The notes under the pieces are model-generated. The model worked only from the letters and a program-made list of their open reading frames with translations, searched no databases and had not been told where the DNA came from. The position numbers and the translations under genes were made by a program. 24,369 bases of DNA from a virus, in the IMG/VR virus record IMGVR_UViG_3300033153_001095, positions 1-24,369 of that record; one strand, given 5' to 3'. Of this stretch, positions 740 through 17,918 are shown piece after piece (position 1 is the stretch's first letter; each line of letters starts with the position of its first letter).

Positions 740-2409
740 TGAAAGTGCCTACTTTAGTTAATCTAGTAGGTCTTGTTGCTTACGCAAGTGGAGCTTCATA
801 TAGTCCTTTACTACGCTACAAGTGGAATACTACTATTACTGATGGATATAGAACTCTCATAGATAGTGGTACATCTCCACGCTATAATGCTGATTTATAT
901 TTCGGTAGTGGTGTAAAGTTTAATGGTATTGACCAAAGAGTTAATTCAATTAATTGTGTAATAGGTGATATAGGCTATATATTTATGGAAGTTAGAGCTA
1001 TAAACGGTGTATACTTTTTATCACAAGCTGGTGCAAGCAGATTATACATTAAGGCATCAGCACATATTGGTTTAGGTGATAGTGCTAATATTCCGACTGG
1101 CAGACAAACAGACTTAGACGATGGAAATCATCATACTATTCTAACTATGTGGGATAATGGTAATTGGACTCAAATTATAGACAATACAGAAGTTTTAAAA
1201 GGAACATACGAGGGTGCAGTAAATGTTGAAGCCATATCCCTAGGTGGTTCATCTGCCTATGATAACTATAATGAGTTCATAGCTAAAAATACACAGATAG
1301 GCTCTTTTATACCAACTCAAACACAAATAGAATACCAATACAACAATCCCGAAAAATTCCTATACAGAGAAGATGATATTCTCAAATCTGAAATACTACC
1401 TCAAACTGAGATAGATAATGTAGTAGCTTATTTACCTATGTGTGAGACTGATGGATTTGTTAGAGACTTAGTTAGCTATAGTGAAGGTGTTGAAATAAAT
1501 GATGAAAATGCTGAATGGTGGTTTGTAGGAAGTAATTGGAGTTATGCAGATAATGTACTAGAGTCTTTAGGGGATAATACAGATGCAAGAGCCCAAATAG
1601 ATAATCCTACACTATTTGCAGGGAAATTTTATACACTATCTTTTGATGTGTTGACTCATGATGGTGTGCTTAATATATATATAATTGATGGTGGTTTTAA
1701 TAGACTAGATATGATTCAAGCTGCTGGTAGTTATGCGTATACAGTGTTTATAGCAAATGACGAGAGTTATTTTAGTTTCTACTCAAATCCATTTACGGGA
1801 ACTATTGCTAATATTTCTATTAGAGAGGTTACAGGTACATATCCTATAGCTAGTTATACAGATGAAGCACGTACTGATGCTACGCAACTTAGAAGTGGGT
1901 TACAATCGTGTTTTCTTAAAAGAGATGCTGCAGGAGTACCGTATGCTGGTAATTTTGATAGTGTTAAATTCGATGAAGTAGGTAAAATAGATACTAATTA
2001 TATTGTAGACAGCACAAATAGTTACCATGTAGAGTTTATAATAAATAGAAAAGATATATATTTATATGAAACATTTGGTACAAATAGAGATTTATTCCGA
2101 CTATACGAGACAAGCATGACAGTGAAAGTAAGAGATCAAACTACATCTGGTGCAAGTATACCATCAACTGGTGCATTTCATATATACAGTCAATATATTT
2201 CTACTGGAATAGATACTGGGGAACATAAACTATGGGTGAATGGTGTACTAAAAAACACTACAGCTATAGATAAATCTTCCTACAGTGGTGGAGAATGGTA
2301 TTTCCCTTCATCACTGATTAGCGAGTTTAGGATGTTCAATGTACATATAGAAGTACAAGATCCAACTAAACTATATAACACCGCATTAGCAAAAGGGTTA
2401 CTAGATTAG
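739..2409 (+). CDS. Fibre/adhesin-like virion protein with LamG-like regions
   Basis: This 556-residue protein is beta-rich and aromatic-rich. Two regions look like concanavalin/LamG jelly-roll modules: residues about 55-205 (a 'V.FNGIDQRV' strand followed by a 'HTILTMWDNGNWTQIIDN' segment) and about 400-550 (a 'HKLWVNGVLKNTT' strand and a final 'EFRMFNVHIE' segment). The last segment parallels the 'NFRMYDKAL' and 'NFRIYDRAL' C-termini of the fibres at 7738-11074. Between them, residues about 250-365 resemble a carbohydrate-binding module ('LSFDVLTHDG'). These folds are typical of receptor-binding fibres and glycan-binding adhesins. Start ATG overlaps the upstream stop. The hydrophobic N-terminus is not a convincing signal peptide. 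Function is inferred from fold-like patterns, not a named family. Confidence 0.75.
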   Translation: MKVPTLVNLVGLVAYASGASYSPLLRYKWNTTITDGYRTLIDSGTSPRYNADLYFGSGVKFNGIDQRVNSINCVIGDIGYIFMEVRAINGVYFLSQAGASRLYIKASAHIGLGDSANIPTGRQTDLDDGNHHTILTMWDNGNWTQIIDNTEVLKGTYEGAVNVEAISLGGSSAYDNYNEFIAKNTQIGSFIPTQTQIEYQYNNPEKFLYREDDILKSEILPQTEIDNVVAYLPMCETDGFVRDLVSYSEGVEINDENAEWWFVGSNWSYADNVLESLGDNTDARAQIDNPTLFAGKFYTLSFDVLTHDGVLNIYIIDGGFNRLDMIQAAGSYAYTVFIANDESYFSFYSNPFTGTIANISIREVTGTYPIASYTDEARTDATQLRSGLQSCFLKRDAAGVPYAGNFDSVKFDEVGKIDTNYIVDSTNSYHVEFIINRKDIYLYETFGTNRDLFRLYETSMTVKVRDQTTSGASIPSTGAFHIYSQYISTGIDTGEHKLWVNGVLKNTTAIDKSSYSGGEWYFPSSLISEFRMFNVHIEVQDPTKLYNTALAKGLLD

Positions 2410-2436
2410 GTTGATGAAATCTTCGAATAACCGCAT

Positions 2437-2464
2437 AAATGGGTAGCTTTTCAGCTATCCACTT
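2437..2464 (+). terminator. Intergenic hairpin after the 556-residue fibre gene
   Basis: Arms 2437-2448 (AAATGGGTAGCT) and 2453-2464 (AGCTATCCACTT) pair over 12 positions with one mismatch and one G-U, around the 4-base loop TTTC. No T-run follows on the + strand, so this is either a weak intrinsic terminator or an mRNA processing/stabilising hairpin separating the fibre gene from the packaging block. Confidence 0.5.
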
Positions 2465-2517
2465 CCCAAAATCTTACATTTTCCTTAACTTTCAGCTAAC
2501 ATTAATAACAGTACGTA

Positions 2518-2523
2518 TATACT
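2518..2523 (+). promoter_or_regulatory. Weak candidate -10 box upstream of the packaging block
   Basis: TATACT lies 28 bases before the ATG at 2552 in an AT-rich stretch, and resembles the box before the 482 gene (both read ATATACTT). There is no upstream TG and no clear -35, so support is weak. A promoter here would make sense because a hairpin closes the preceding gene. Confidence 0.27.
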
Positions 2524-2551
2524 TCCTATATTAAACACATAAAGGTGATAC

Positions 2552-3733
2552 ATGGGAAAGACTAAGTATAAGTTATTGAGTATAGATGAGAGATTAGCAT
2601 TGTATGATGAATATCATGGAGTAGGTTTCGGAGATAAAGAAGTTAAGTTAGAAGAGATGATGCTTAGACTTGGTGTATCACGAGCTACGTTAAGTAGATG
2701 GCTTCAGAAGATTAAGCAAACACTACAAGATAAGCCACATGAAGATGAGTACTTATTCTTGAAAGGCAAATCTGATTATGTAGATTATGAGAAAAACCCT
2801 AATGGTGATCCTGTTCGTGGTTGGAAGAAGTATGATACAGATAATGAAAAGAGATTTACAGCTATTAAAGAATCAGTAGTAAGATTGATGGCTGGTATTG
2901 AACCTATAGAGAATGTACCTGCTCCTGAGTTCCTCTCTAATAAACTATGTAATGTATTCATATCTAATGACATTCATATTGGTGCACTTATGCAAGCTAA
3001 GAGTACTAGAGACAGAAACTGGGATACAGATGTAGCTATTGATACGTTGAGAACTGCTATTGACTTCTTAGTTGAGAATAGTCCTCAAGCAGACGAAGCT
3101 ATTGTAGTTGATTTAGGTGACTTGACTGAGATGGATGACTTCAAGAATGCAACTCCTCATAGTGGTAATAGTTTAGATGTAGATGGTAGATACAGTGATG
3201 TAATAACTGCTGCAATGGATGCAATGGTGTACATGGTAAACAGTGCACTTAAGAAGCATAAGCTTGTTAGGTTTATCAATATAAGTGGTAATCATGATAT
3301 TACTACAGGTCATGCTATAAGAGCGTATGTAGTGGCGTGGTTTAGAGAAAATCCTAGAGTAATAGTTGATAATGGTCATGAAGATATTAAGTATCATAAA
3401 CACGGTAATACTATATTAGGTTTTGCTCATGGTGATGGTCTTAAGATGCAAGATGGTGGTGAAGCTATGGTAATGCATAATCCTGATTGGATTGAGTCTA
3501 ACCAGAATAGGTATTTCCACTTTGGTCATAATCACAAAGACAAAGTATTTGATGGTAGATTGTGTAAGAGTGAAAGCCATAGAAACTTAGCACCACTAAA
3601 CAACTGGGCAAGTCATAAAGGTTTTGGTAGAAGTGCAGGAACAATGAAATGTATTACATACCATGAGTTAGCAGGAGAGTACAATAGAGGTACTTTCAAT
3701 GTAATGATGATGGAGAATGAAGATGGAAATTAG
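2552..3733 (+). CDS. Calcineurin-like metallophosphoesterase with N-terminal helix-turn-helix
   Basis: This 393-residue protein carries the full metallophosphoesterase signature: D140-x-H142 (NDIHIG), GD at 189-190 (DLGDLTEMDD), GNHD at 246-249, an AHGDG segment at 292-296 and GHNH at 325-328. The spacing fits a two-metal phosphatase/nuclease core (Mre11/SbcD/calcineurin superfamily). Residues about 30-56 look like a helix-turn-helix (LGVSRATLSRWLQKIK), so it may bind DNA. It starts at an ATG preceded by AAAGGTG and opens the packaging operon just before the terminase genes. A role in processing DNA ends or branched DNA for packaging is plausible but inferred; a phosphatase acting on other substrates is not excluded. 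All metal ligands appear intact. Confidence 0.88.
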   Translation: MGKTKYKLLSIDERLALYDEYHGVGFGDKEVKLEEMMLRLGVSRATLSRWLQKIKQTLQDKPHEDEYLFLKGKSDYVDYEKNPNGDPVRGWKKYDTDNEKRFTAIKESVVRLMAGIEPIENVPAPEFLSNKLCNVFISNDIHIGALMQAKSTRDRNWDTDVAIDTLRTAIDFLVENSPQADEAIVVDLGDLTEMDDFKNATPHSGNSLDVDGRYSDVITAAMDAMVYMVNSALKKHKLVRFINISGNHDITTGHAIRAYVVAWFRENPRVIVDNGHEDIKYHKHGNTILGFAHGDGLKMQDGGEAMVMHNPDWIESNQNRYFHFGHNHKDKVFDGRLCKSESHRNLAPLNNWASHKGFGRSAGTMKCITYHELAGEYNRGTFNVMMMENEDGN

Positions 3734-3917
3734 TAAAGATGTGCTGCTAAAAGCACTAGGTCTACAGTATATTAAAGACATTGACGTAATAACAACTAAA
3801 GTTGATACAGCGTCAGATTTCGAAGAAGTAGCTAAACTCTATGATGAGTTAGCAGAAATTACTAGAGCTGCCGGTAAAGACTTTGCAGCAGTTGAGGCTA
3901 AGTATGAAGTACAATAA
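3723..3917 (+). CDS. Small hypothetical protein, helical
   Basis: I chose the ATG at 3723 (64 residues) over the in-frame ATG at 3717 because GGAG at 3712-3715 is 7 bases from 3723 but only 1 base from 3717. The gene overlaps the end of the phosphoesterase gene by 11 bases, indicating coupled translation. The protein is small, acidic and predicted helical (EEVAKLYDELAEITRAAG), with no transmembrane segment or known motif. I do not recognise it; its position in the terminase operon suggests a phage accessory role. Confidence 0.65.
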   Translation: MEISKDVLLKALGLQYIKDIDVITTKVDTASDFEEVAKLYDELAEITRAAGKDFAAVEAKYEVQ

Positions 3918-4113
3918 AACTGATAGACGTACTGCTAACCATGAATCAGATTACTGTATAGAGTGGAGTGATGGTACGCTAGTGTGGGTTAAAGATGATA
4001 CTATAGTAGATTTTAATGATATGCTTGAAGCAGAACAAGTTAATGATTTACTAATTTTAATATGTACAGAACTAAAAGAGTATAAATCTATGTATGAAGG
4101 ATTATGTAAATGA
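3904..4113 (+). CDS. Small hypothetical acidic protein
   Basis: The ATG at 3904 has GAGG 6 bases upstream and gives 69 residues; an upstream in-frame TTG at 3883 would lie deep inside the preceding gene and is less likely. It overlaps the preceding gene by 14 bases. The protein begins with a basic stretch (MKYNKTDRRT), continues with a beta-like acidic segment (DYCIEWSDGTLVWVKDD) and ends in a helix. No family recognised. Its TGA overlaps the ATG of the next microprotein (ATGA). Confidence 0.65.
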   Translation: MKYNKTDRRTANHESDYCIEWSDGTLVWVKDDTIVDFNDMLEAEQVNDLLILICTELKEYKSMYEGLCK

Positions 4114-4229
4114 GTAATGATGGTTTAGTTATAGGATTAGTACTGCTTTGTGCAGCGATGGCTGTTACTCTAGTATATAAGTTGTTGTTTACTTCCCCTG
4201 ATGAAGATAATTCCACTTGGATAGGATAA
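4110..4229 (+). CDS. 39-residue single-pass membrane microprotein
   Basis: ATG at 4110 overlaps the preceding TGA (ATGA) and the frame runs to TAA 4227-4229. The peptide has a short polar N-terminus, one hydrophobic helix at about residues 6-24 (LVIGLVLLCAAMAVTLVYKL) and an acidic C-terminal tail. It ends 3 bases before the small terminase start, filling an otherwise empty 120-base gap. Gap-filling, stop/start overlap and a clean transmembrane helix support a real gene; function is unknown (a holin-, antiholin- or superinfection-type role is speculation). Confidence 0.6.
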   Translation: MSNDGLVIGLVLLCAAMAVTLVYKLLFTSPDEDNSTWIG

Positions 4230-4232
4230 GAT

Positions 4233-4928
4233 ATGATTGAAATTGAAATGATACAAGAACAACTTGGTAAGAAGAAAGGTGAACTCGTTACACAAGGAAC
4301 TGTTGATGAGTTGAACAACTTAGTTGACGACCCTGAGTATGGTGAAGAGTTCTTAGATATGTATGTAAGCTACTTCAATGTAATGGAAGGTAACTCTGCT
4401 TGGTCTACTCCTAAGTATATGAATGCTATGAAGTTCTTCTGTTTGGTTGAAGGTGGTCATAATGGTGTGGATGCTTACGTAAAAGTATTCCCTGAAAGAC
4501 TTGAAGCTAGAGTCAAAAGAGGTCAAGGTAAAGATAATATGGGTGGCGAGTCCTCTCGTTATAACGCTAGTGCTTTAGTTAATGAGATACGTAAAGTTGC
4601 TACAATTCCTGTACAGCTAATACATAGACATTTGTTACACGAGGCGATCCTAGTAAATGCTGACTTGATGTTACATGCGAAGAGTGAGATGGTTCAACAA
4701 AAAGCTGCTGAGACTCTTATTAGAGAACTTAAACCAGTTGAAGATACTACTATCAATCTTAAGGTTGGTATGGATGATGAAACTAGAAGTGCTCAACGTG
4801 AGTTAGTTGACCATGTAGGACAGATAGCTCTTAACCAGCAAAAGATGTTAGCATCTGGAATGAGTATCTCAGAGATACAAAGGCTGAATATTAAAAAGCC
4901 TGAAGTAATAGAAGCGGAGGTAGAGTAA
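4233..4928 (+). CDS. terS: Probable terminase small subunit
   Basis: This 231-residue, largely helical protein sits two genes upstream of the large terminase. Its middle (residues about 60-150) has the pattern I associate with small-terminase proteins of podovirus-like phages: a 'YMNAMKFFCLVEGG' helix, 'VDAYVKVFPER', a 'SSRYNASALVNEIRKVA' segment and 'RHLLHEAI', followed by 'KAAETLIRELKPVED'. Small terminases recognise the packaging site on phage DNA and stimulate the large-subunit ATPase. The C-terminal about 50 residues are helical and charged. GGATAAG precedes the ATG. The TAA overlaps the next ATG (TAATG). The assignment rests on pattern recognition and position, not a catalytic motif. 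Confidence 0.75.
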   Translation: MIEIEMIQEQLGKKKGELVTQGTVDELNNLVDDPEYGEEFLDMYVSYFNVMEGNSAWSTPKYMNAMKFFCLVEGGHNGVDAYVKVFPERLEARVKRGQGKDNMGGESSRYNASALVNEIRKVATIPVQLIHRHLLHEAILVNADLMLHAKSEMVQQKAAETLIRELKPVEDTTINLKVGMDDETRSAQRELVDHVGQIALNQQKMLASGMSISEIQRLNIKKPEVIEAEVE

Positions 4929-5251
4929 TGGTTAATGTACAATTTGATAAATGTAGTGAGTGTGGTAGACCTAAAGATTACGTTAGGTTTGGTAAAGACG
5001 ATAAACCTATACTTTCGTGCAAGTACAACCATTATAGTGCACCTAAACCGCATTGTGTATTTACATATCCTGATGGCAGTACTACTAAGTGTAAACTTGG
5101 CAGTATTATAAAAGGTATACGTAAAGGACTCCATAGACCCATAAAAGTTACGTTTGTAGATATCAATAAAAACGATTTGAGTATGCAGGAGTTCATTTAT
5201 ACTTGTACTATCGCTTTACATGGTTCCAAAGGAGAAGTAGAATATGTCTAA
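4928..5251 (+). CDS. Small Cys-rich (zinc-ribbon-like) protein
   Basis: This 107-residue protein starts with a CxxC pair (KCSECGRPKD, residues 8-14) followed about 18 residues later by a Cys and His (SCKYNH); a further Cys pair lies in the middle. This is compatible with a small zinc-binding fold, though the second half-site is not a canonical CxxC. The remainder is basic and may bind nucleic acid. A strong GGAGG (4916-4920) lies 7 bases before the ATG, which overlaps the terS stop; its own 3' end overlaps the terL start by 8 bases. Position suggests a packaging or late regulatory accessory; no specific family recognised. Confidence 0.65.
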   Translation: MVNVQFDKCSECGRPKDYVRFGKDDKPILSCKYNHYSAPKPHCVFTYPDGSTTKCKLGSIIKGIRKGLHRPIKVTFVDINKNDLSMQEFIYTCTIALHGSKGEVEYV

Positions 5252-6998
5252 ACTTGCAAATATACCAGATAAGCCCAGTGTGGATTGGTTACTATCAAAT
5301 GTAGATTTAACTTTTAAAGGTTACATCCCTAGTGTAGTAGCATTTGAATTTTTCAACTTTATTAGACTTGCTCTTGGAGAAGAACCTGAGAATGCAAATC
5401 CATTAGCTCATTACTTCTTAATTGATACAATCTTTCAACAACCTAATGTTGCGTTCTATTTTGAGGCTAGAGGTATCAACTATGAAGAGATTAAAGGCAA
5501 GACAGCTATTATGTGTTGTCGTGAGTTCTCTAAATCTACATTGATTGGTACATATCTACCGTTGTTTATAGCGTGGAAAGGTAGTATCCCAGGTTACGGT
5601 AAAGTGAACTATGGTCTGTACGTTGGGGATAGTATGCGAAATAATGTTAAGACTACTATGAATACTATTGAATTAGTTTTCTTAGAGAGTGAATGGTTAG
5701 TTGACCAATTTGAGTCATATAGATTCACAGATGAGGTTATGGAATTAGTTAGACATCCATCTACTAAAGCTGAACTAGCTGCATTTCAGAGAGCTGTAGA
5801 TATGGGTAAGAAGAAAGAACAAGTACCTGGTAGAAGTAAGCGTAAGTTTGCTATGAAAGGTGTTGGTGCCGCAACTGGTACTCGTGGTACGAGAAGTGGT
5901 CTAGATAGACCTCAGTTTGCTATCTTCGATGACTTGGTATCTAGTGAGACTGATGCTAATAGTGAAGTTGTATTAGGCGGTATTGAGTCTACGATAGATT
6001 CAGATGTACTTAAAGCACTACATGGTGCTGGTAACTTTAGTATGATTATTGGTACACCATATAATAAGAAAGATCCAGTTTATCGTAGACTTGAAAGTGG
6101 TAGATGGGTTCCTATTGTATTTCCTATGTGTAAAGAGATAAATGTAGATATTACTAAAGAAGAGTTTGAAGGTGTGTGGGAAGATAGACATAGTTATGAG
6201 AAAGTTATGAAGCGTTACTTAGATGACTTAGCTGAGAATAAAATGCGTTCATTTAACCAGGAGCTTATGCTTAGAATTACTAGTGAGGAAGACAAACTTA
6301 TCCCTGATAGTTATTTGACTTGGTATAAGCGTTCTGACATTATTAATAGAGGTGGAGAGTATAATTGGTATATTACTACCGACTTTACAACTACAGGTTC
6401 TAAGGGTTCAGATTTTAGTGGTATGGCAGTGTGGGCTGTCAATAGTAATGATGATTGGTTATTAGTAGATTTAAGTCTTAAGAAACTTGAACTAGAAGAC
6501 CAGTATAAAGAGCTGTTTAGACTAGTTAATAGATACAAACGATTCACAGGTAACATAGTGGTTGGGGTAGAGACAGATGGGCAACAGAAGGCTCATTTAC
6601 ATGCTATACAGCAACGTATGTCTAAAGAGAATGAGTATTTTACATTAGGTCAACAGAAAGGTTCTACATCTTTAGGTATTAGGTCTGCTAGTGTTCCTGG
6701 TAAGAAGCATGACAGGTTTAAAGCTGTAGTACCAATGTTCCAGACTGGTAAGATTTGGTTTCCTGAAGAACTGCGTGAGACAAGTAGTATGCAAGAATTA
6801 CTGACTGAGTTACAGTATGTTACGTTTTTAGGATTTGGTTCTACTCATGATGATGGTGCTGACCTTATCACACAAATGCACTTAATGGAAACATTTAGTC
6901 CTAGTACAGTTGCTCAAACAGCTCATCCTAAAGATGCTATGTGGTTTGATGATGTAGATGATGATTATGAGAGTGGTATGAGCTCATATGTAGTTTAA
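5244..6998 (+). CDS. terL: Terminase large subunit (packaging ATPase/nuclease)
   Basis: This 584-residue protein has the two-domain architecture of TerL. The N-terminal ATPase shows a variant Walker A (CREFSKST, residues 92-99, as in T7/N4-type terminases rather than GxxxxGK[ST]), Walker B (FAIFDDL, 225-231) and the coupling motif (IIGTPY, 268-273). The C-terminal RNase H-like nuclease shows the expected acidic residues: D380 (TTDFT), E443/D445 (VETDG) and D537/D540 (HDDGAD). It pumps DNA into the procapsid through the portal and cuts concatemers. AAGGAG precedes the ATG. Length is normal and no residue looks missing. The next gene is an adaptor, not the portal, which lies 7.5 kb downstream. 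Confidence 0.95.
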   Translation: MSKLANIPDKPSVDWLLSNVDLTFKGYIPSVVAFEFFNFIRLALGEEPENANPLAHYFLIDTIFQQPNVAFYFEARGINYEEIKGKTAIMCCREFSKSTLIGTYLPLFIAWKGSIPGYGKVNYGLYVGDSMRNNVKTTMNTIELVFLESEWLVDQFESYRFTDEVMELVRHPSTKAELAAFQRAVDMGKKKEQVPGRSKRKFAMKGVGAATGTRGTRSGLDRPQFAIFDDLVSSETDANSEVVLGGIESTIDSDVLKALHGAGNFSMIIGTPYNKKDPVYRRLESGRWVPIVFPMCKEINVDITKEEFEGVWEDRHSYEKVMKRYLDDLAENKMRSFNQELMLRITSEEDKLIPDSYLTWYKRSDIINRGGEYNWYITTDFTTTGSKGSDFSGMAVWAVNSNDDWLLVDLSLKKLELEDQYKELFRLVNRYKRFTGNIVVGVETDGQQKAHLHAIQQRMSKENEYFTLGQQKGSTSLGIRSASVPGKKHDRFKAVVPMFQTGKIWFPEELRETSSMQELLTELQYVTFLGFGSTHDDGADLITQMHLMETFSPSTVAQTAHPKDAMWFDDVDDDYESGMSSYVV

Positions 6999-7013
6999 GT
7001 GTAGCTTAATCGG

Positions 7014-7027
7014 TAATACGGTATTAT
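7014..7027 (+). promoter_or_regulatory. Small palindrome overlapping a candidate -10 box
   Basis: TAATAC (7014-7019), G, GTATTA (7021-7026) is a 13-base perfect palindrome around one base. It overlaps TATTAT at 7022-7027, which is preceded by CGG and resembles the GGTATAAT boxes before other late blocks. It may be an operator-over-promoter or a weak hairpin ending terL. The stem is AT-rich, so an RNA hairpin would be weak. Confidence 0.3.
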
Positions 7028-7054
7028 TGGGTAAAAATTTACTGGAGATTGCAT

Positions 7055-7738
7055 ATGACTGTAGCAGATGTAATTGAGGATGCTAAGTACGGAGAACTCT
7101 CCCAGCTTGGTGTAGTCAAGAAATTAGAGAAAACAGCAACTAAAGCTGATGGTGAGAAGCAGATACTGAGTTATATTAACTTAGGTCTTATAGAGATTTA
7201 TAAACGATTTTCTATGCGTACTGAAGAGACTGTTATCACTATGGTAGAAGGTCAATCTTTATATACGATAGATATTGCTAATATATACCATGACCCAGAT
7301 AATCTGGATGGTTACTTAAATGCGTTACCAGGAGAATTGAATGCAGTACTAGGTGCGTATGATGAGGAAGGTGAAGCTTACCCTTTAAATGATGAGACAG
7401 ATGACTTGAGTGTTAATACTCCTTCGTATAATGTTATTCAAGTTCCTAATCCTGTAGCCGGTGAAGGTGTATTCATTATATATAATTCAGCTCCAGATAG
7501 GCTTATATGGCAAGAAGATTTATCGTTAGTTACGCTACCGATTGCTCCTGCATTACTAGAAGCATTGTTGCATTATATTGGATATAGAGGACATGGTTCT
7601 GTAGATGGTAGTATACAAGCAGAGAACAATACACACTATATGAGATTTGATGCTAGTTGTAAACGTGTTGAAGCGTTAGGGTTAAATACTCTAGATGCTA
7701 TTTTAGGAAATAATGTACAAGAAAAAGGATTTGTGTAA
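7055..7738 (+). CDS. Head-tail adaptor/head-completion-like protein
   Basis: I chose ATG 7055 (228 codons including stop) because GGAG lies at 7044-7047, 7 bases upstream; an in-frame TTG at 7049 is less suitable. The protein opens with a helical segment (VADVIEDAKYGELSQLGV ... ILSYINLGLIEIYKRF) typical of phage adaptor-like proteins described as DUF6682-like: an N-terminal helix bundle that counts rows of residues, then a beta middle (VITMVEGQSLYTI), then a C-terminal helical part (APALLEALLHYIGYRG) and a final helix. Such proteins bind below the portal or in the neck. The family link is by pattern and position. TAA overlaps the next ATG. Confidence 0.65.
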   Translation: MTVADVIEDAKYGELSQLGVVKKLEKTATKADGEKQILSYINLGLIEIYKRFSMRTEETVITMVEGQSLYTIDIANIYHDPDNLDGYLNALPGELNAVLGAYDEEGEAYPLNDETDDLSVNTPSYNVIQVPNPVAGEGVFIIYNSAPDRLIWQEDLSLVTLPIAPALLEALLHYIGYRGHGSVDGSIQAENNTHYMRFDASCKRVEALGLNTLDAILGNNVQEKGFV

Positions 7739-9864
7739 TGAAAAGAGCACCCTCTTCAGGCGTATCTAGTGGTGAGGTTTCTCGTCAACTAGATAATACT
7801 GCCTATGATAATGTTAAAGTTGTAGCATTAGCTATTACAGATGTAGCACTTGTAGCTGATAATATAGATGATCTGATTGCTGCCTCAGGTAATATAGCTG
7901 AGATACTAATTGTTGCTGGACTAGAGGATGAGATAATATCTCTAGTTACTGATAAAGCTACGTTAGATAGCCTATTTGCAGATAAAGCCACACTAGACTC
8001 TCTAGTAGCTGATAAAGATAGTTTAGACGCAGTAGCTCTTGCTTTAGCAGAAATTATTATAAATGCATCTAATATCGATGATATAGTTACTATAGCAGAT
8101 AGTATAGCAGATGTAAATACTATAGCTGATGATATAGCCGCAGTAATTACTGTAGCTGTTAATATAGCGGATATTACTAACTTTTCAGATGTGTACTATG
8201 GAGCAAAAGTTGCAGATCCTACATTACGAAATGATGGTTCTGCTATGGTTTCAGGAGATATGTACTTTAACACTATAGCTTCTGAACTTCGTTATTACAA
8301 AGGTACTGTATGGGAACCAATTCCGACACTTACGAAGGAAGAAGTTAAATCGTTATATGAGTCTAATGACAATACTAATGTATATAATGATATTGAAAAA
8401 GCTAAAGTAACTCATATTTCTGTTACACAAGCAGTTGATTTAGATGCTATAGAATTAAGAATAGAGGGTTTAGATAATGTAGATAATACATCTGATGCAA
8501 ATAAACCAGTATCTGATGCAACGCAAACGGCACTAGACCTTAAAGCACCAATAGCAGACCCTACGTTTACTGGGACAGTAAGTGGTATAAGTAAGACAAT
8601 GGTAGGATTATCAAATGTTGATAATACTTCAGATACCGCTAAACCAATCTCTACTGATACACAAACTGCATTGGACTTAAAGACAAATAATGTAGATTTA
8701 GTCACAGTAGTAGGAAATATCAATAACCCATTATTGAGTATACCATTACATAACTCATTAGATATAGAAGCAGGTAATGGTAATGTAAGTTTTAGTAGGG
8801 GTACAATAGCTACTTATGTAGATAGATATGGAATATTAAAATACGCTACTACTAATGAACCTAGATTTGAGGATACTGGACTTCTAGTTGAGGGTGATAG
8901 TACTAATGTGTTATTAAACTCAGAGATTGCTGTTATTCAAAGTGGTACAGTTGATGCTAATGTAATTGCTTCACCTGATGGAAATGTTACAGCCGATAAG
9001 GTTATCCCTGACGATGGTAACACTGTTGCTAGATGGGCTAAGTATTTTAATAAAACATCAGGCTCAATCTATACTGTTAGTTCATTTAATAAAGCGGGTG
9101 AAATGAATCGTATAAAACTAGGTTTTTATGAGAGCGGTGATAAATTTGCCCATTTCGACTTATCTGATGGAACTATCGTAAGTGAAGATAGTGGTATTGT
9201 TGGAAAGATTGAAGCCTTAGATGGTGGTTGGTATAGATGTTCTGCTACTTTCACTGCGGGAGCAACTTCAACCACAGACAATGCTTATGTTACTAGACAA
9301 GATAATGCAGATGCAGATGGAACGAAAGGATGGTATACATGGGGTGGACAAATTGAAGAATTGTTGTTTGCTTCAAGTTATATACCTACTATAGATAGTG
9401 AAGTTACTAGAAGCAAAGATGACTGTTATGTATCTTTAGCTAATAATACTATTGCGGGCAGTGCTCCATCAACTACTGTAGTAGACTTTGATAGATTAGG
9501 GTTAATGGTTGGTGCTCAGGCTTATATTTATTCATCATCTGTTACTCCTAGCCTTGCTATGTGGTTTTGGGCTGGTCACAATTCTTATGCTAGAGAAGGA
9601 ATAGACACAAATATAGATTTTTATAATAACTATAGTTTAGGAAAAAGTAGAGCTTGTGTAGTAAATGATTTATCAGAAACTGTATTATACAACAACGGTA
9701 TAGAAGTAGGTAGAAGTGCATTAGGTGATAATGCTCCAGTTAACGTACTTACTTCAATAAACATAGGCAGTAACCAGTCTTTGGATGATAACTTATTTGG
9801 GCACATTAAGAATTTTAGAATGTATGACAAAGCATTAATGCCCAGCGAAGCGTTAATAGTATAA
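7738..9864 (+). CDS. Long tail fibre with coiled-coil stalk and LamG-like tip
   Basis: This 708-residue protein is built in modules. Residues 1-20 are a short N-terminus, then about 20-155 form an Ile/Ala/Asp heptad-like stalk (repeats such as 'NIDDIVTIADSIADVNTIAD') common in podovirus-type fibres. Residues about 155-205 contain a 'GDMYFNTIASELRYYKGT' beta motif frequent at fibre anchor junctions. Residues 244-316 hold two 'GLxNVDNTSD...TQTALDLK' repeats. Residues 324-390 are a module shared with the next gene. The C-terminal about 315 residues contain a carbohydrate-binding-like domain and a LamG-like tip ending in 'LFGHIKNFRMYDKAL'. It likely attaches to the tail and contacts the host surface. 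Start ATG overlaps the upstream stop (TAATG). Confidence 0.88.
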   Translation: MKRAPSSGVSSGEVSRQLDNTAYDNVKVVALAITDVALVADNIDDLIAASGNIAEILIVAGLEDEIISLVTDKATLDSLFADKATLDSLVADKDSLDAVALALAEIIINASNIDDIVTIADSIADVNTIADDIAAVITVAVNIADITNFSDVYYGAKVADPTLRNDGSAMVSGDMYFNTIASELRYYKGTVWEPIPTLTKEEVKSLYESNDNTNVYNDIEKAKVTHISVTQAVDLDAIELRIEGLDNVDNTSDANKPVSDATQTALDLKAPIADPTFTGTVSGISKTMVGLSNVDNTSDTAKPISTDTQTALDLKTNNVDLVTVVGNINNPLLSIPLHNSLDIEAGNGNVSFSRGTIATYVDRYGILKYATTNEPRFEDTGLLVEGDSTNVLLNSEIAVIQSGTVDANVIASPDGNVTADKVIPDDGNTVARWAKYFNKTSGSIYTVSSFNKAGEMNRIKLGFYESGDKFAHFDLSDGTIVSEDSGIVGKIEALDGGWYRCSATFTAGATSTTDNAYVTRQDNADADGTKGWYTWGGQIEELLFASSYIPTIDSEVTRSKDDCYVSLANNTIAGSAPSTTVVDFDRLGLMVGAQAYIYSSSVTPSLAMWFWAGHNSYAREGIDTNIDFYNNYSLGKSRACVVNDLSETVLYNNGIEVGRSALGDNAPVNVLTSINIGSNQSLDDNLFGHIKNFRMYDKALMPSEALIV
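8467..8685 (+). repeat. Tandem fibre repeat (two 27-codon units)
   Basis: Codons 8467-8547 and 8605-8685 encode two related 27-residue units that share GL.NVDNTSD..KP.S..TQTALDLK. The motif is widespread in phage fibres and commonly marks trimerising stalk segments or recombination joints. The copies are separated by a 57-base linker encoding a 'PTFTGTVSG' strand. Confidence 0.8.
8707..8907 (+). repeat. 67-codon fibre module, copy 1 (copy 2 at 9958-10158)
   Basis: The encoded 67 residues, beginning at VVGNINNPLL and ending at the Asn of DSTN, align without gaps to those encoded at 9958-10158 in the next gene; I count 45 identical residues. The shared module is central in the first fibre but near the N-terminus in the second, which is consistent with duplication of the receptor-binding part of one fibre followed by divergence. 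Confidence 0.8.
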
Positions 9865-9873
9865 GGATGTAGT

Positions 9874-10281
9874 ATGAGTAACAATATGGGATGGGGACTT
9901 AAAAGTATAGCTGATAAGTTCCGTAAAGGTATATACACAGAAGATGAGTTGAGTAGTGTTATAGGTAATATAAATAATCCATTGCTAGATATGCCACTAA
10001 ATAACTCTTTGTCTATGAAACAAGGAGTCGGTGAAGTTACATTTACTAGAGATACGATAGCCACATATATTGATAGGTATGGCATACTTCAGTATGCTGC
10101 TGTAGATGAACCTAGATTTGAGAAAGATGGGTTTTTAGTTGAGGGTGAGAGTACTAATCTATGTTTGCAAAGTGAGGATTTTAACACTACATGGAACTGG
10201 CAAAATATAACACCAGTATCTAAAGTAGCACCTGATGGAAGTAACAATGCCTATAAACTAGAAGAAAACTCAAACACATGA
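9874..10281 (+). CDS. N-terminal part of a second, paralogous fibre (frame-broken)
   Basis: This 135-residue product begins after a good AAGGATG ribosome binding site with a short unique N-terminus (about 28 residues, basic-helical: WGLKSIADKFRKGIYTEDEL), followed by the 67-residue module shared with the upstream fibre and the first strand of a carbohydrate-binding-like domain. It stops at TGA 10279-10281 within that domain. The missing part continues in the +1 frame as the next CDS; the open frames overlap only between 10262 and 10281. Removing one A from AAAA at 10265-10268 would fuse them without a gap in similarity. It lacks the long coiled-coil stalk of the first fibre. Confidence 0.75.
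   Translation: MSNNMGWGLKSIADKFRKGIYTEDELSSVIGNINNPLLDMPLNNSLSMKQGVGEVTFTRDTIATYIDRYGILQYAAVDEPRFEKDGFLVEGESTNLCLQSEDFNTTWNWQNITPVSKVAPDGSNNAYKLEENSNT
9958..10158 (+). repeat. 67-codon fibre module, copy 2
   Basis: This is the partner of the module at 8707-8907: 45 of 67 residues identical by my count, no gaps, including RYGIL.YA...EPRFE and VEG.STN. It begins 28 codons after the start of the second fibre gene. Confidence 0.8.
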
Positions 10282-10291
10282 TGAAATAACA

Positions 10292-11074
10292 ATGAGCGTA
10301 TTTGCTAAGGCAGACGAAAGGGATTGGATTATAATAAATGCGTCAAGTTCTTACGCTAAAGTGTGGTTTAATGTTTCTACTGGAGAAATAGGTAACATAC
10401 TTAATGGTACAGCCAAGATAGAAAAAGTGGGTGATTTTTACAAATGTAGTGTAACGGGTAAGTTTTTAACTGGCGGCAATTTTACCATGTATATACAAAA
10501 TTCTATAGCTGATGGAATAGAAACTTATGACGGAGTAGTAGGAAGTGGAGCTATTTTTTATGGTGTTCAGTTAGAAAAGCTACCTTTTGCTTCAAGTTAT
10601 ATACCTACAGAAGCTAGTGAGGTTACTAGAAGTGGTGACTTTTGTGAAGTTGATTATAGTGGAAACATAACAGAGAGAAATGACAACACAACATGGATAG
10701 CAGACTTTGATAAACTAGGAGACATATCTACTCAACATCAATTTATAGCTTCAATTAAAAATGTTCTAAATACTAACATTGTTGCTTCATTAAATGGTAA
10801 TAATAACTTACATTCTAACTTTACTAGTAGTGGAAGTATAACAACATCTAATTTTGCAAGTGGAAGGGTAGCTGTATCTATAGATGAAGCTACACACTCA
10901 TTGTATGTAAATGGAACATTAGATACTTCCATTGCAGTAGACAGAGATGCTTTACATAGCCCTCAAGGACTAAGAATAGGAGTTAGAGATATAGGTGAAG
11001 AACTATTTGGACACCTTAAAAACTTTAGAATATACGACAGAGCATTGACACCAACTGAAATAGGAATGGCATAA
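10292..11074 (+). CDS. C-terminal part of the second fibre: CBM-like plus LamG-like tip
   Basis: The 260-residue frame from ATG 10292 starts with 'MSVFAKADERDW', which in intact phage fibres lies inside a carbohydrate-binding-like domain rather than at a start. It continues to 'FASSYIPTEASEVTRSGD' and a LamG-like domain ending in 'LFGHLKNFRIYDRAL', parallel to the upstream fibre throughout. No ribosome binding site is visible before 10292; the frame is open back to 10262. It is therefore better seen as the 3' part of the gene starting at 9874, expressed only by frameshifting or reinitiation, or not at all. The stop overlaps the next ATG (TAATG). Confidence 0.75.
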   Translation: MSVFAKADERDWIIINASSSYAKVWFNVSTGEIGNILNGTAKIEKVGDFYKCSVTGKFLTGGNFTMYIQNSIADGIETYDGVVGSGAIFYGVQLEKLPFASSYIPTEASEVTRSGDFCEVDYSGNITERNDNTTWIADFDKLGDISTQHQFIASIKNVLNTNIVASLNGNNNLHSNFTSSGSITTSNFASGRVAVSIDEATHSLYVNGTLDTSIAVDRDALHSPQGLRIGVRDIGEELFGHLKNFRIYDRALTPTEIGMA

Positions 11075-11121
11075 TGAGAAAATTTAGAAGTAATGCGGAA
11101 GCAAATGACATAGGTGCTTAA
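11074..11121 (+). pseudogene. 15-codon leader fragment of the third fibre-like gene
   Basis: ATG 11074 overlaps the upstream stop in the TAATG arrangement used by confident starts in this window, but runs only 15 codons (MRKFRSNAEANDIGA) to TAA 11119-11121. The +1 frame then opens at 11114 into the 293-residue fibre-like protein. Removing one T from the TT at 11118-11119 would join '...DIGA' directly to 'KNFIINGGFDIWQRG', which reads like a normal fibre N-terminus. I regard this as the displaced true start of the next gene. Confidence 0.5.
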
Positions 11122-11995
11122 AAACTTTATCATCAACGGTGGTTTTGATATTTGGCAGAGAGGAAATGGTACATTTACTACTAACCAATATTCTGCTGAT
11201 AGACATTATACTGGTAATGGTAGAGGTGTTGTAAAAGAAGTAGATTCAGTAGAGGGAAATGTACATAAATGTACTAATGATGTAGCAAGTGGTGTTTTTC
11301 TTGCTCAGCCTATAGAATTGAAAATACTTGGTAACAATAATGAGTTTAAAATAGGTAATACTTACACATTAACTGCTAGGGTTAAGAGTTCAGCAAAAGT
11401 TAGGTGTTATGCTCACTTTAGAGTAGGTGTAGCGGGTACAGCTACGGAAGTATTTACGGGTGATGAGAAAGGCGGTAATGATGTATATGAGAATATATCT
11501 TGGACTTTTACAGTTACCGCTTCTGCTAGTGGCTCACAAAATAATTTACTTATAAGATTATGGTCAAGTACAGATGAAGCTGATTTTAGGGTATCACATT
11601 GGCAATTAGAAGAGGGTAGTGTATTTACTGGTTTTGAGAAAAGACCTATAGGAATGGAATTGGCTTTATGCCAGAGATATTACTTTAGAACTGGAAGTGG
11701 TTATGCTTATTCTACTTGGGCTACTGGCTTTGCTGAATCTACTACTGAATTTGAGTGCGTGTTTCACTTGCAAAATACATTAAGAGCGATTCCATCTATA
11801 TCATCAAGTGGAGCAATAAGAGTAAGGAGCGGAAGCACTCATGCGGTTAGTGCTTTAAATATCTCAGGTATTACAATCACATTATCACAAGTGCACATAA
11901 TAGCTACAACGACTGGTCTAACTGCTGGTCAAGGTGGTAAGCTAACTGCGAATAATAATAATGCGTCTTATGTAGCTTTAGATGCAGAATTATAA
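11114..11995 (+). CDS. Third fibre-like protein with carbohydrate-binding-like domain
   Basis: The 293-residue frame has a GTG at 11114, with no convincing ribosome binding site (a GGAAG lies 13 bases upstream). The N-terminal half (residues 1-180) carries the motif 'NFIINGGFDIWQRG', then 'YSADRHYTG', then a jelly-roll ending in 'HWQLEEGSVFTGFEKRPIG', a pattern common in phage fibre proteins. The 'ELALCQRYYFRTG' segment (about 187-200) marks the start of a distinct C-terminal tip rich in Ser, Thr and Gly. It probably binds host surface glycans. The start is probably displaced by a one-base insertion relative to ATG 11074. Confidence 0.8.
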   Translation: MLKNFIINGGFDIWQRGNGTFTTNQYSADRHYTGNGRGVVKEVDSVEGNVHKCTNDVASGVFLAQPIELKILGNNNEFKIGNTYTLTARVKSSAKVRCYAHFRVGVAGTATEVFTGDEKGGNDVYENISWTFTVTASASGSQNNLLIRLWSSTDEADFRVSHWQLEEGSVFTGFEKRPIGMELALCQRYYFRTGSGYAYSTWATGFAESTTEFECVFHLQNTLRAIPSISSSGAIRVRSGSTHAVSALNISGITITLSQVHIIATTTGLTAGQGGKLTANNNNASYVALDAEL

Positions 11996-12003
11996 AAGGA
12001 TAT

Positions 12004-12495
12004 ATGATGGAAATTGAAACAGTAAAAATACAAGGTGATGGGTACTTAGTTAACGGTGTTTTGGGAGTACCTAAAGCAGATGAAAATAGACACTATCAAG
12101 AAGTTAAGATTTGGCTAGAGACTAATACTCCTGAGTCTGAATTTACAGAAGAAGAGTTATTGACTAAAGTTACTGCTCTAACTGCTATCAAAGCTAAGTT
12201 AGTTAAAGAGAAGGCTTTAGAGGGTATTGTCATTACTCATAATACAGTGGCATATGATGCTCACGGTAGGGCTATTGGTAATATGAGTGCTGTAATGGGT
12301 ATAGCTAACTTTAAATTTAATCAAGCTGTATCTATAGGTGGTGCAACAAACGAAGAAGCTTATCAGGCAATCTACAAAGATACTGTAATCTTCTGGAGAG
12401 GTGCTGATGATAAAACTCATGAAGTTATGATAGAATCAGTTTGTGAAGTGCTTGAGAAAGCGATGCTAGCGGTAGCAGAAATAGTGGTGGTATAA
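12004..12495 (+). CDS. DUF4376-like fibre accessory protein
   Basis: This 163-residue protein begins after AAAAGGA; ATGs at 12004 and 12007 are both possible. The C-terminal half follows the DUF4376 pattern seen in fibre-associated phage proteins: a helix rich in Lys/Glu (residues 61-74), a beta hairpin (GIVITHNTVAYDAHGRA), an 'IGNMSAVMGIANF' helix, a conserved 'FWRGADDKTHEVM' strand and a final helix. Such proteins lie next to fibre genes and are thought to act in fibre assembly or at the distal tip. Its place at the end of the fibre block supports that. The family match is by pattern. Confidence 0.65.
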   Translation: MMEIETVKIQGDGYLVNGVLGVPKADENRHYQEVKIWLETNTPESEFTEEELLTKVTALTAIKAKLVKEKALEGIVITHNTVAYDAHGRAIGNMSAVMGIANFKFNQAVSIGGATNEEAYQAIYKDTVIFWRGADDKTHEVMIESVCEVLEKAMLAVAEIVVV

Positions 12496-12496
12496 A

Positions 12497-13060
12497 ATGG
12501 AAAAGATGAAGACGATATTGTTAAGTGTATGGTATTTGGTAATACTTGTAACTAAAGGTGTATGGGCTAGGATATTTTATCCTGTTGCATATTTGTTCTA
12601 CGATTGGACTATGAGAGGTACAGTTAGACGTAATTATACTATACCTGAATCAATAGCTAAGAATCCTATTAAGTGGTTCTTATGGTTACATTATGATGAT
12701 GCACAACCTCCATGTGGCTCTAAAGAGTTTATAGCTGACAAGTGTACAAGATGTAGGTTCTTATGTGCGTACAAGTGGAATACAAGAAATAGTATGTACA
12801 ATATAAATTATAACTATTTAAGTAACCAGAGTAAGATAGTTAGTCATACTGAACCAGGTGGTATTTACCAATGGAACAGAAAGCTTAGAAGACGTAATGG
12901 TGATATAGGTAGTCAGTTAGTATGGTTTAGTACTGAGAAAGAACAATATAGATTCTTGTATAGTATGGCTAAGATATGGTTCAACAGAGATGTTACATTT
13001 TACTTTGGTTGGAACCCAAATACTAACGGTAGATTTACTCTAGCGTTAAAGATAAAATAA
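12497..13060 (+). CDS. Hydrophobic N-terminus phage protein (DUF7338-like)
   Basis: This 187-residue protein opens with a hydrophobic stretch (residues about 5-37, LLSVWYLVILVTKGVWARIF then YPVAYLFYDW), followed by an aromatic- and Arg-rich domain with Cys pairs (PCGS at 73-76, KCTRC at 83-87) and a 'YKWNTRNSMYNINYNY' segment. The pattern 'ARI.YP.AYL..D...R....' plus 'W..RN...N' is what I associate with DUF7338, a phage family of unknown role. It starts one base after the upstream stop and precedes the lysis genes, so a role at the inner membrane is possible. It lacks a good ribosome binding site and may rely on coupling. Confidence 0.65.
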   Translation: MEKMKTILLSVWYLVILVTKGVWARIFYPVAYLFYDWTMRGTVRRNYTIPESIAKNPIKWFLWLHYDDAQPPCGSKEFIADKCTRCRFLCAYKWNTRNSMYNINYNYLSNQSKIVSHTEPGGIYQWNRKLRRRNGDIGSQLVWFSTEKEQYRFLYSMAKIWFNRDVTFYFGWNPNTNGRFTLALKIK

Positions 13061-16574: not shown

Positions 16575-17195
16575 ATGGGTGATACACACGATAGTAGAGA
16601 AATGGATGTAAGTAAACATTCACGTAATGATAATCAGATACTGAGTAAGGACTTATTTAATGCTTATCAGGAACTAATTCGAGAATCTATCGCTTCAGAT
16701 ATTACTGGAGGGACTCACGTAGTGGATGAGTTTAGTCATGCTGTACATAACGGTGATGCTTATTCTGTATCTTCTGGTGGAACTATCCCAGGTGAAACAA
16801 CTGTATATATGCTTAGTCTAGGTGGAGATAAAGCTATACACTTCGGTGAGTTCTCTCTAGCAACTAGTAAAGGTCTTATTACGCTAGCATTATACGAAGA
16901 TTCTATCATTGAAGATAATGGTACGTTGCTTACTCCTTTGAATAGAAATAGAGAGTCTACTAATACGGCTACTAAATTTACATATAGTGGTGCTGATGTG
17001 TCAGATGTAGGTACTCTATTAGAAAAGTCTACTATATATGATACAGGTGGAGTTGGTAGTCATAATACTCAAGGATTTGGTTCTATAGACTCTCAATGGG
17101 TACTATCACCAGATAGAGTATATGTACTAGCTATCACGAATGAAGATAGTACAGAAGTAGATTTTAATGGTACGTTTATGTGGATTGAACACTAA
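16575..17195 (+). CDS. Predicted virion (head-associated) structural protein
   Basis: This 206-residue protein is beta-rich with Gly, Thr and Ser turns and no membrane segment. The pattern 'FSHAVHNGDAY', a central 'GLITLALYEDSI', a 'NRNRESTNT' segment and a terminal 'VLAITNEDS.....GTFMWIEH' recurs in phage proteins encoded beside the portal or capsid and generally called virion structural or head proteins. A strong AAGGAGATAAT ribosome binding site precedes the ATG, implying high expression. It could be a capsid decoration protein. No enzymatic motif seen. Confidence 0.7.
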   Translation: MGDTHDSREMDVSKHSRNDNQILSKDLFNAYQELIRESIASDITGGTHVVDEFSHAVHNGDAYSVSSGGTIPGETTVYMLSLGGDKAIHFGEFSLATSKGLITLALYEDSIIEDNGTLLTPLNRNRESTNTATKFTYSGADVSDVGTLLEKSTIYDTGGVGSHNTQGFGSIDSQWVLSPDRVYVLAITNEDSTEVDFNGTFMWIEH

Positions 17196-17241
17196 TTTAT
17201 TCTTTGTACACAGTGATTAAGCAGTAATTAAGTAAGTGTTA

Positions 17242-17250
17242 TGGTATAAT
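17242..17250 (+). promoter_or_regulatory. Extended -10 promoter before the small head-fibre-like gene
   Basis: TGGTATAAT is a perfect extended -10 match, identical to the box at 13502-13510, in the 75-base gap after the virion protein gene and 20 bases before the next ATG (17271). No good -35 is visible. It would drive the small protein, scaffold and capsid genes. Confidence 0.55.
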
Positions 17251-17270
17251 ACAAAAAATAAGGAATTAGC

Positions 17271-17501
17271 ATGGAAAACGGTAATAAAAGTAAAGTAATA
17301 GAACTAGATGGTGTTGTATATGCATGGAATGGTGATGCTTGGGCTCCTCTTCCTACTTTAGCTGAAGTAGCTAAGTTAGATGAAGCTAATACTTTTACTG
17401 ATGCAGTGCAGATATTTTCTGCATTACCTATAGAAGACCCAGTAGTTGCTGGACAACTATGGGCTAACTCAGGTGTAGTTACAGTGAGTGCTGGAGCATA
17501 A
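17271..17501 (+). CDS. Small head-fibre/decoration-like protein
   Basis: This 76-residue protein has an N-terminal beta segment (VIELDGVVYAWNGDAWAPLP), a helical 'TLAEVAKLDEANTFTDAVQIF' part and the C-terminal motif 'DPVVAGQLWANSGVVTVSAG', which is common at the ends of small phage head-fibre or decoration proteins. AAGGA precedes the ATG and a perfect extended -10 box lies 20 bases upstream. It probably decorates the capsid. Short length and family recognition by pattern limit certainty. Confidence 0.65.
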   Translation: MENGNKSKVIELDGVVYAWNGDAWAPLPTLAEVAKLDEANTFTDAVQIFSALPIEDPVVAGQLWANSGVVTVSAGA

Positions 17502-17588
17502 GTTTCTTCAGTGTCCAGAATGGGAATGACACTTAACTAAAAGCTCTAATTTTACAGGCAATCTCGAAAGAGGACACAAGGATATAAT
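17502..17588 (+). promoter_or_regulatory. Gene-free leader with competing stems before the 17589 gene
   Basis: AGTGTC (17510-17515) can pair with GACACT (17528-17533) around a 12-base loop, while the overlapping GTGTCC (17511-17516) is also fully complementary to GGACAC (17572-17577), just before the AAGGA ribosome binding site. A small CTC-GAAA-GAG hairpin sits between. The two long pairings are mutually exclusive, so a weak RNA switch or processing site is conceivable. This is read from complementarity only. Confidence 0.3.
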
Positions 17589-17918
17589 ATGTTAACACAA
17601 GAGCAACTCGATAACATCGAACTCGACAATGCGGAAGCAAGAGAAGCAATTAGTAAAGGTAAAGCCTTTGAAAAATTGTTAAATGGTGATGACTACAAGT
17701 TAGTTATCTCAGATGGATTTCTTAAAGAGTATCCAAAAGAACTAGCTGTAGCAATCGCTACTAATACTGGAGCATATGATACAGATGCACTTATTGAAGA
17801 ACTGAAGGGTATTAATGCCTTAGTAAGTTATGGATTTAGAGTAGCTGGAGCACATAAAGCCGCAGAACAAACATTAGCCGATAATGCAAAGCTTATCGCT
17901 TCTCAAGAAGAGGAGTAA
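17589..17918 (+). CDS. Small helical protein upstream of the scaffold
   Basis: This 109-residue protein is acidic and predicted all-helical (residues 4-30 and 62-108), with a 'LLNGDDYKLVISDGFLKEYPKELAVAIA' core. Small proteins with this layout are common immediately before scaffold or capsid genes in podovirus-type phages; their function is unknown to me. AAGGATATAAT precedes the ATG, and only 3 bases separate its stop from the scaffold start, so the two are co-translated. A chaperone-like or scaffold-partner role is inference. Confidence 0.72.
   Translation: MLTQEQLDNIELDNAEAREAISKGKAFEKLLNGDDYKLVISDGFLKEYPKELAVAIATNTGAYDTDALIEELKGINALVSYGFRVAGAHKAAEQTLADNAKLIASQEEE

Follow-up and report, generated by a model that had tools for sequence, protein, structure and literature searches.

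Frame breaks in two accessory tail-fibre genes of an N4-like phage fragment

In the tail fibres of the PHROG 4492 family, a KN..INGGFDIWQRG domain stands in frame with what precedes it. In some of the relatives collected here this is a long shaft, in others a short leader with 20-49 residues to NGG. Starts of the short-leader kind often lie in a TAATG overlap and have a Shine-Dalgarno, as in fibre genes of uncultured phages (L063, L028 and L010), where a TAATG-type start, a Shine-Dalgarno and an M[ST]RAR-type leader are followed by GKN..INGGFDIWQRG. The tail proteins of a second family, PHROG 5939, have a LamG-like end, and their intact relatives are single frames. A programmed +1 frameshift has been described in gene 17.1 of phage SPP1, where the site is CCCUAA (PMC6316719). 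The N4-like phage DEV was propagated and plated without its gp53 long tail fibres (PMC12892993), so that N4-like phages can tolerate the loss of fibres. In metagenomes, hot spots of microdiversity can lie in host-recognition proteins (PMC6832022), which makes false joins in such genes plausible.

The stretch of DNA analysed here, hereafter the window, is the whole of the 24,369-nt IMG/VR virus record IMGVR_UViG_3300033153_001095 (positions 1 to 24,369), a metagenomic contig from which end repeats are absent. Its portal matches the SU10_portal profile (5.4e-130), and portal and capsid match those of N4-like phages at up to 48.7% (Salmonella phage FSL SP-058) and 48.8% (Pseudoalteromonas phage pYD6-A), respectively. 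It therefore carries both the N4-type portal and the N4-type major capsid protein by which the Schitoviridae (N4-like phages) are recognized and, as placed by these two sequences, is a fragment of an N4-like phage (podovirus). No frame as large as the virion-packaged RNA polymerase gene occurs in these 24 kb, which represent only part of the genome. No relatives above 78% amino-acid identity were found, the closest reaching 78% in the terminase and 71% in the portal, and the fibre genes of the nearest relatives by terminase and portal are non-homologous to those of the window, which indicates that the fibre cassette turns over fast. Three fibre-like genes lie behind the terminase, gene 1 intact and genes 2 and 3 broken, and the features of this region are as follows.

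7738..9864, + strand: gene 1, intact long fibre and paralogue of gene 2 (phrog_5939, 5e-43; aligns pairwise with both gene 2 pieces; N terminus common to relative L090)
9874..10281, + strand: gene 2, N-terminal piece of 135 aa (phrog_5939 positions 371-458; the intact relative L096:5931-7934 has the same N terminus)
10261..10291, + strand: gene 2 break zone (shortened PDG-TMSVFAK spacing)
10292..11074, + strand: gene 2, C-terminal piece of 260 aa from ATG in another frame, with a LamG-like end (phrog_5939 positions 482-757; Laminin_G_3, 1.6e-10)
11074..11121, + strand: gene 3, displaced leader of 15 codons, ending at TAA 11119-11121 (homologous to relatives' in-frame leaders, closest in L116)
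11111..11121, + strand: gene 3 break zone, from the body-frame stop TAG 11111-11113 to the leader-frame stop (29-nt gap in the DNA alignment with L116)
11114..11995, + strand: gene 3 body, tail-fibre tip protein of 293 codons from GTG, predicted carbohydrate-binding-module (CBM)-like jelly roll and C-terminal domain (PHROG 4492; viral-contig relatives; AlphaFold2 and Foldseek)
12004..12495, + strand: gene downstream of gene 3 (homologue at the same place in L116)
12497-13060: DUF7338-like gene (74% match in relative L005)

The putative start of gene 3, ATG 11074, overlaps the stop of the upstream frame 10292-11074 in a TAATG, an arrangement found again in the window at 739, 4928 and 7738, and is preceded by AGGAATGGCATA, a fair Shine-Dalgarno. 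As an earlier note on this DNA had described, with exact coordinates, the frame opened by this ATG (MRKFRSNAEANDIGA) ends after 15 codons at TAA 11119-11121, and a body of 293 codons follows in the next (+1) frame, from GTG 11114, just after TAG 11111-11113, to 11995. The body matches PHROG 4492, annotated as 'tail fiber protein', with an E-value of 2.3e-29, its residues 3-293 aligning with profile positions 792-1096 (the whole domain, and the last 305 of 1096 profile positions), and motif, fold and C-terminus are like those of the family; 236 relatives were identified in viral contigs. An AlphaFold2 model built on a 44-sequence alignment (mean pLDDT 83, pTM 0.78) predicts a CBM-like jelly roll with a C-terminal domain after it. 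By Foldseek, the model most closely resembles predicted phage tail fibres and, of the structures already solved, CBM4/CBM16-type modules. PDB matches to insecticidal proteins, which concern carbohydrate-binding-like domains and have global TM-scores near 0.3, were not taken as an indication of function.

Gene 3 departs from its relatives in what lies ahead of this domain. An open frame of at least 22 codons precedes NGGFDIWQ in 100 of 100 occurrences in related viral contigs, as against 7 codons in the window, and the leader is in frame with the domain in all 100 of these collected occurrences, whereas the window leader lies in another frame. Of 5000 shuffles, 37 equalled or exceeded the mean alignment score of the 15-codon translation to the relatives' leaders, as did 2 of 393 ATG-started 15-mers from the window; taken singly, the best score is unremarkable (1002 of 5000 shuffles), so that the claim of homology draws on the mean score and on the closest leader, that of contig L116 (a Sulfurimonas MAG). 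This leader reads MAKIVRSNSELN against MRKFRSNAEAN in the window, with RSNSELN corresponding to RSNAEAN, and the L116 sequence MAKIVRSNSELNRMINEGELAQNGGFKNLIINGGFDIWQRG can be set against MRKFRSNAEANDIGA and LKNFIINGGFDIWQRG. The start of the body is 88% alike over 17 residues, gene-1/2-like sequence lies upstream and a homologue of the gene at 12004 lies downstream. In contrast to the window, L116 has its leader in frame all the way to the domain, with 32 nt more, and the body is interrupted further on. The short leaders of L063, L028 and L010 also differ from that of gene 3 in being in frame and slightly longer, and relative L005, where the gene 3 homologue adjoins a homologue of the DUF7338-like gene, has an in-frame leader with 33 residues to NGG. 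These comparisons bear out the proposal that the mini-frame is the displaced start of a fibre-like gene: as judged from leader homology, it is the true N-terminal leader of gene 3, and gene 3 is a broken member of the PHROG 4492 fibres, not a non-member. The origin of L116 in a Sulfurimonas MAG hints, as a lead only, at a Sulfurimonas-type host; 4 of 228 Sulfurimonas-family genomes contained a match to gene 3, none of them a clean intact orthologue.

The same homology counts against GTG 11114 being the genuine start of the gene, with the upstream mini-frame 11074-11121, coupled to it, having arisen by chance or having a regulatory role. The GTG does overlap the mini-frame stop by 8 nt, a possible reinitiation arrangement, and the body is open over its full length. 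Not only is the leader homologous to in-frame protein leaders, however, but L116 has GGA, which is not a start codon, at the position of the GTG, and the Shine-Dalgarno-like GGAAG stands about 12 nt away; we consider a genuine GTG start very unlikely. That the 15-codon leader and the body are linked during translation by a programmed +1 frameshift is, by a little, harder still to credit. Such a site would share with SPP1 gene 17.1 a stop codon at the junction and continuation of the body in the +1 frame, but the junction in gene 3 has no slippery codon (GCU precedes UAA, and the alanine tRNA re-pairs badly on CUU, with a first-position mismatch) and the arrangement is not conserved, relatives reading straight through. 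Moreover, gene 2 has no plausible site and is missing sequence, and recoding five residues before the fold begins would have no obvious purpose.

The distance from ATG to NGG in gene 3 is 61 nt in the window versus 93 nt in L116, and the DNA alignment between the two opens a gap of 29 nt at the break, which leaves one codon of difference. The break had been ascribed to a one-base insertion, repaired by deleting one T at 11118-11119. The frame break itself stands, and, with 20-49 residues to NGG among natural leaders, a short leader that gained one base may account for it, but a loss of about 29 nt aligns better with L116, which is the only close gene 3 relative and has many frame breaks of its own. 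In our judgement the break is rather more probably a deletion. A 13-nt direct repeat, CTTAAAAACTTTA, at 11015 and 11117 was discarded as a recombination point, being plausibly a chance occurrence in AT-rich sequence encoding LKNF.

The second fibre gene proved to be broken too, in agreement with the earlier note. Gene 2 (9874-11074) is split into two pieces, 9874-10281 and 10292-11074, which match consecutive parts of a single family, phrog_5939, as the intact PHROG 5939 proteins do in one frame. Its N-terminal part has seven relatives in viral contigs and its C-terminal part none in the viral contigs searched, and the frame is intact in all the gene 2 relatives compared. The conserved PDG and TMSVFAK blocks are 49 nt apart in gene 2, versus 81-111 nt in eight intact copies (the paralogous gene 1, L096:5931-7934 and six further relatives). 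Relative to these copies gene 2 is missing 32-62 nt; at least 32 nt must therefore have gone, and the frame shifts because the number lost is not divisible by three. This replaces the one-base insertion previously suggested for gene 2, and we judge a deletion to be the very probable origin of its break. The common direction that had been remarked on for the two breaks would then be a coincidence of length modulo 3, with a chance of about 1/2.

No other gene of the window is visibly broken, so the breaks are, as had been observed, confined to the fibre genes. The remaining ~20 kb shows no frame break, and the apparent coding gaps at 3733-4233 and 17195-17589 hold small open frames and not broken genes; general sequencing error across the contig is thus not indicated. 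Were two breaks to occur at random, both would hit adhesin-like genes with a probability of about 11% when all such genes are counted; for genes 2 and 3 alone the figure is 0.8%, but that restriction was adopted with the data already in view. As evidence, the clustering in adhesin genes is weak, and selection would in any case remove breaks from essential genes.

Taken together, these sequence comparisons favor, with moderate assurance, real small out-of-frame deletions in two accessory fibres of the three-gene cassette of an N4-like phage fragment. Gene 3 would be an ordinary short tail-fibre (receptor-binding) gene that most likely lost about 29 nt just before its KN..INGGFDIWQRG domain, and gene 2 would independently have lost 32 nt or more, out of frame, from its jelly-roll domain. 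Translation from ATG 11074 would then end after 15 codons, and the 293-codon body would either depend on reinitiation at the overlapping GTG 11114, which has a weak ribosome site, and so yield a leaderless fibre, or remain unmade. Two broken accessory fibres beside an intact long fibre would fit relaxed constraint on dispensable adhesins. Counting against such deletions is that the body remains open over 293 codons, which implies that the break is recent or that the body is still expressed.

The two short losses might instead be assembly artefacts, arising where variants from co-existing strains were wrongly joined within a variable fibre cassette or where low coverage led to errors, a possibility that we take seriously while holding it to be the less probable. 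It is consistent with the record being an IMG/VR metagenomic fragment without end repeats, with both breaks lying in fibre genes, where strains differ most, and with the frame breaks seen in related metagenomic contigs (the terminase of L083 and the L116 region). It is harder to reconcile with the ~20 kb that hold no break, and with gene 1, which is just as variable and shares 72% DNA identity with gene 2 over 197 nt, yet is intact.

The clustering had also been read as selection or switching at host-recognition genes, a suggestion that gains no positive support. If the breaks were reversible off states of accessory adhesins that switch host range, their location in receptor-binding genes would be expected, and relative L084 does have features typical of a diversity-generating retroelement, namely a reverse transcriptase and a variable segment that is repeated. 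Neither break, however, has a homopolymer or tandem-repeat tract, no inverted-repeat switch was found, and slippage cannot restore 32 nt or more. No reverse transcriptase frame occurs within the 24-kb window, no gene 2 or gene 3 relative compared is in an alternating state, and the gene 3 frame is intact in every one of the 100 viral-contig occurrences. The breaks thus have neither the repeat tract or inverted repeats of a phase-variable gene nor the hallmark of a diversity-generating retroelement, and switching is among the two least probable readings considered here. The other is that small out-of-frame deletions recur in the cassette and give rise to host-range variants, the leaderless gene 3 product, reinitiated at GTG 11114, acting as an alternative adhesin.

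Should the deletions be real, the window would offer a snapshot of adhesin turnover, in a natural phage with an intact long fibre and two disabled accessory fibres. Should they be artefacts, fibre cassettes in metagenomic phage contigs can hold false frame breaks that are not to be read as switches. The case is fairly ordinary, and its importance is limited whether mutation or artefact is involved.

Several observations were made on related contigs and on the window itself. The L116 fibre cassette, which resembles that of the window and has many frame breaks, adjoins an endolysin-like gene and a bacterial SlyD-type gene; the region is either a decaying prophage or an indel-rich assembly. In L083, the terminase relative (1344-3085) is split between two frames near 2213-2219, an essential gene broken in a related metagenomic contig. 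In L084:4743-7495, from a relative whose terminase is 54% to that of the window, a reverse transcriptase with YMDD (6497-7495) follows a variable-type protein (4743-5843); together with a segment that is repeated near 6190-6507, they give the fibre cassette the look of a diversity-generating retroelement, absent from the window. Within the window, the frame listed as starting at TTG 7049 probably starts at ATG 7055 (MTVADVIEDAKYGELSQ), by comparison with L090 (MTVMDIIEYAKYGELAQ). Finally, the fibre proteins of L093:3518-5182 and L097:3992-5206, from different metagenomes, share a near-identical C-terminal half and differ in their N-terminal and middle parts, a pattern of modular exchange of fibre tips.
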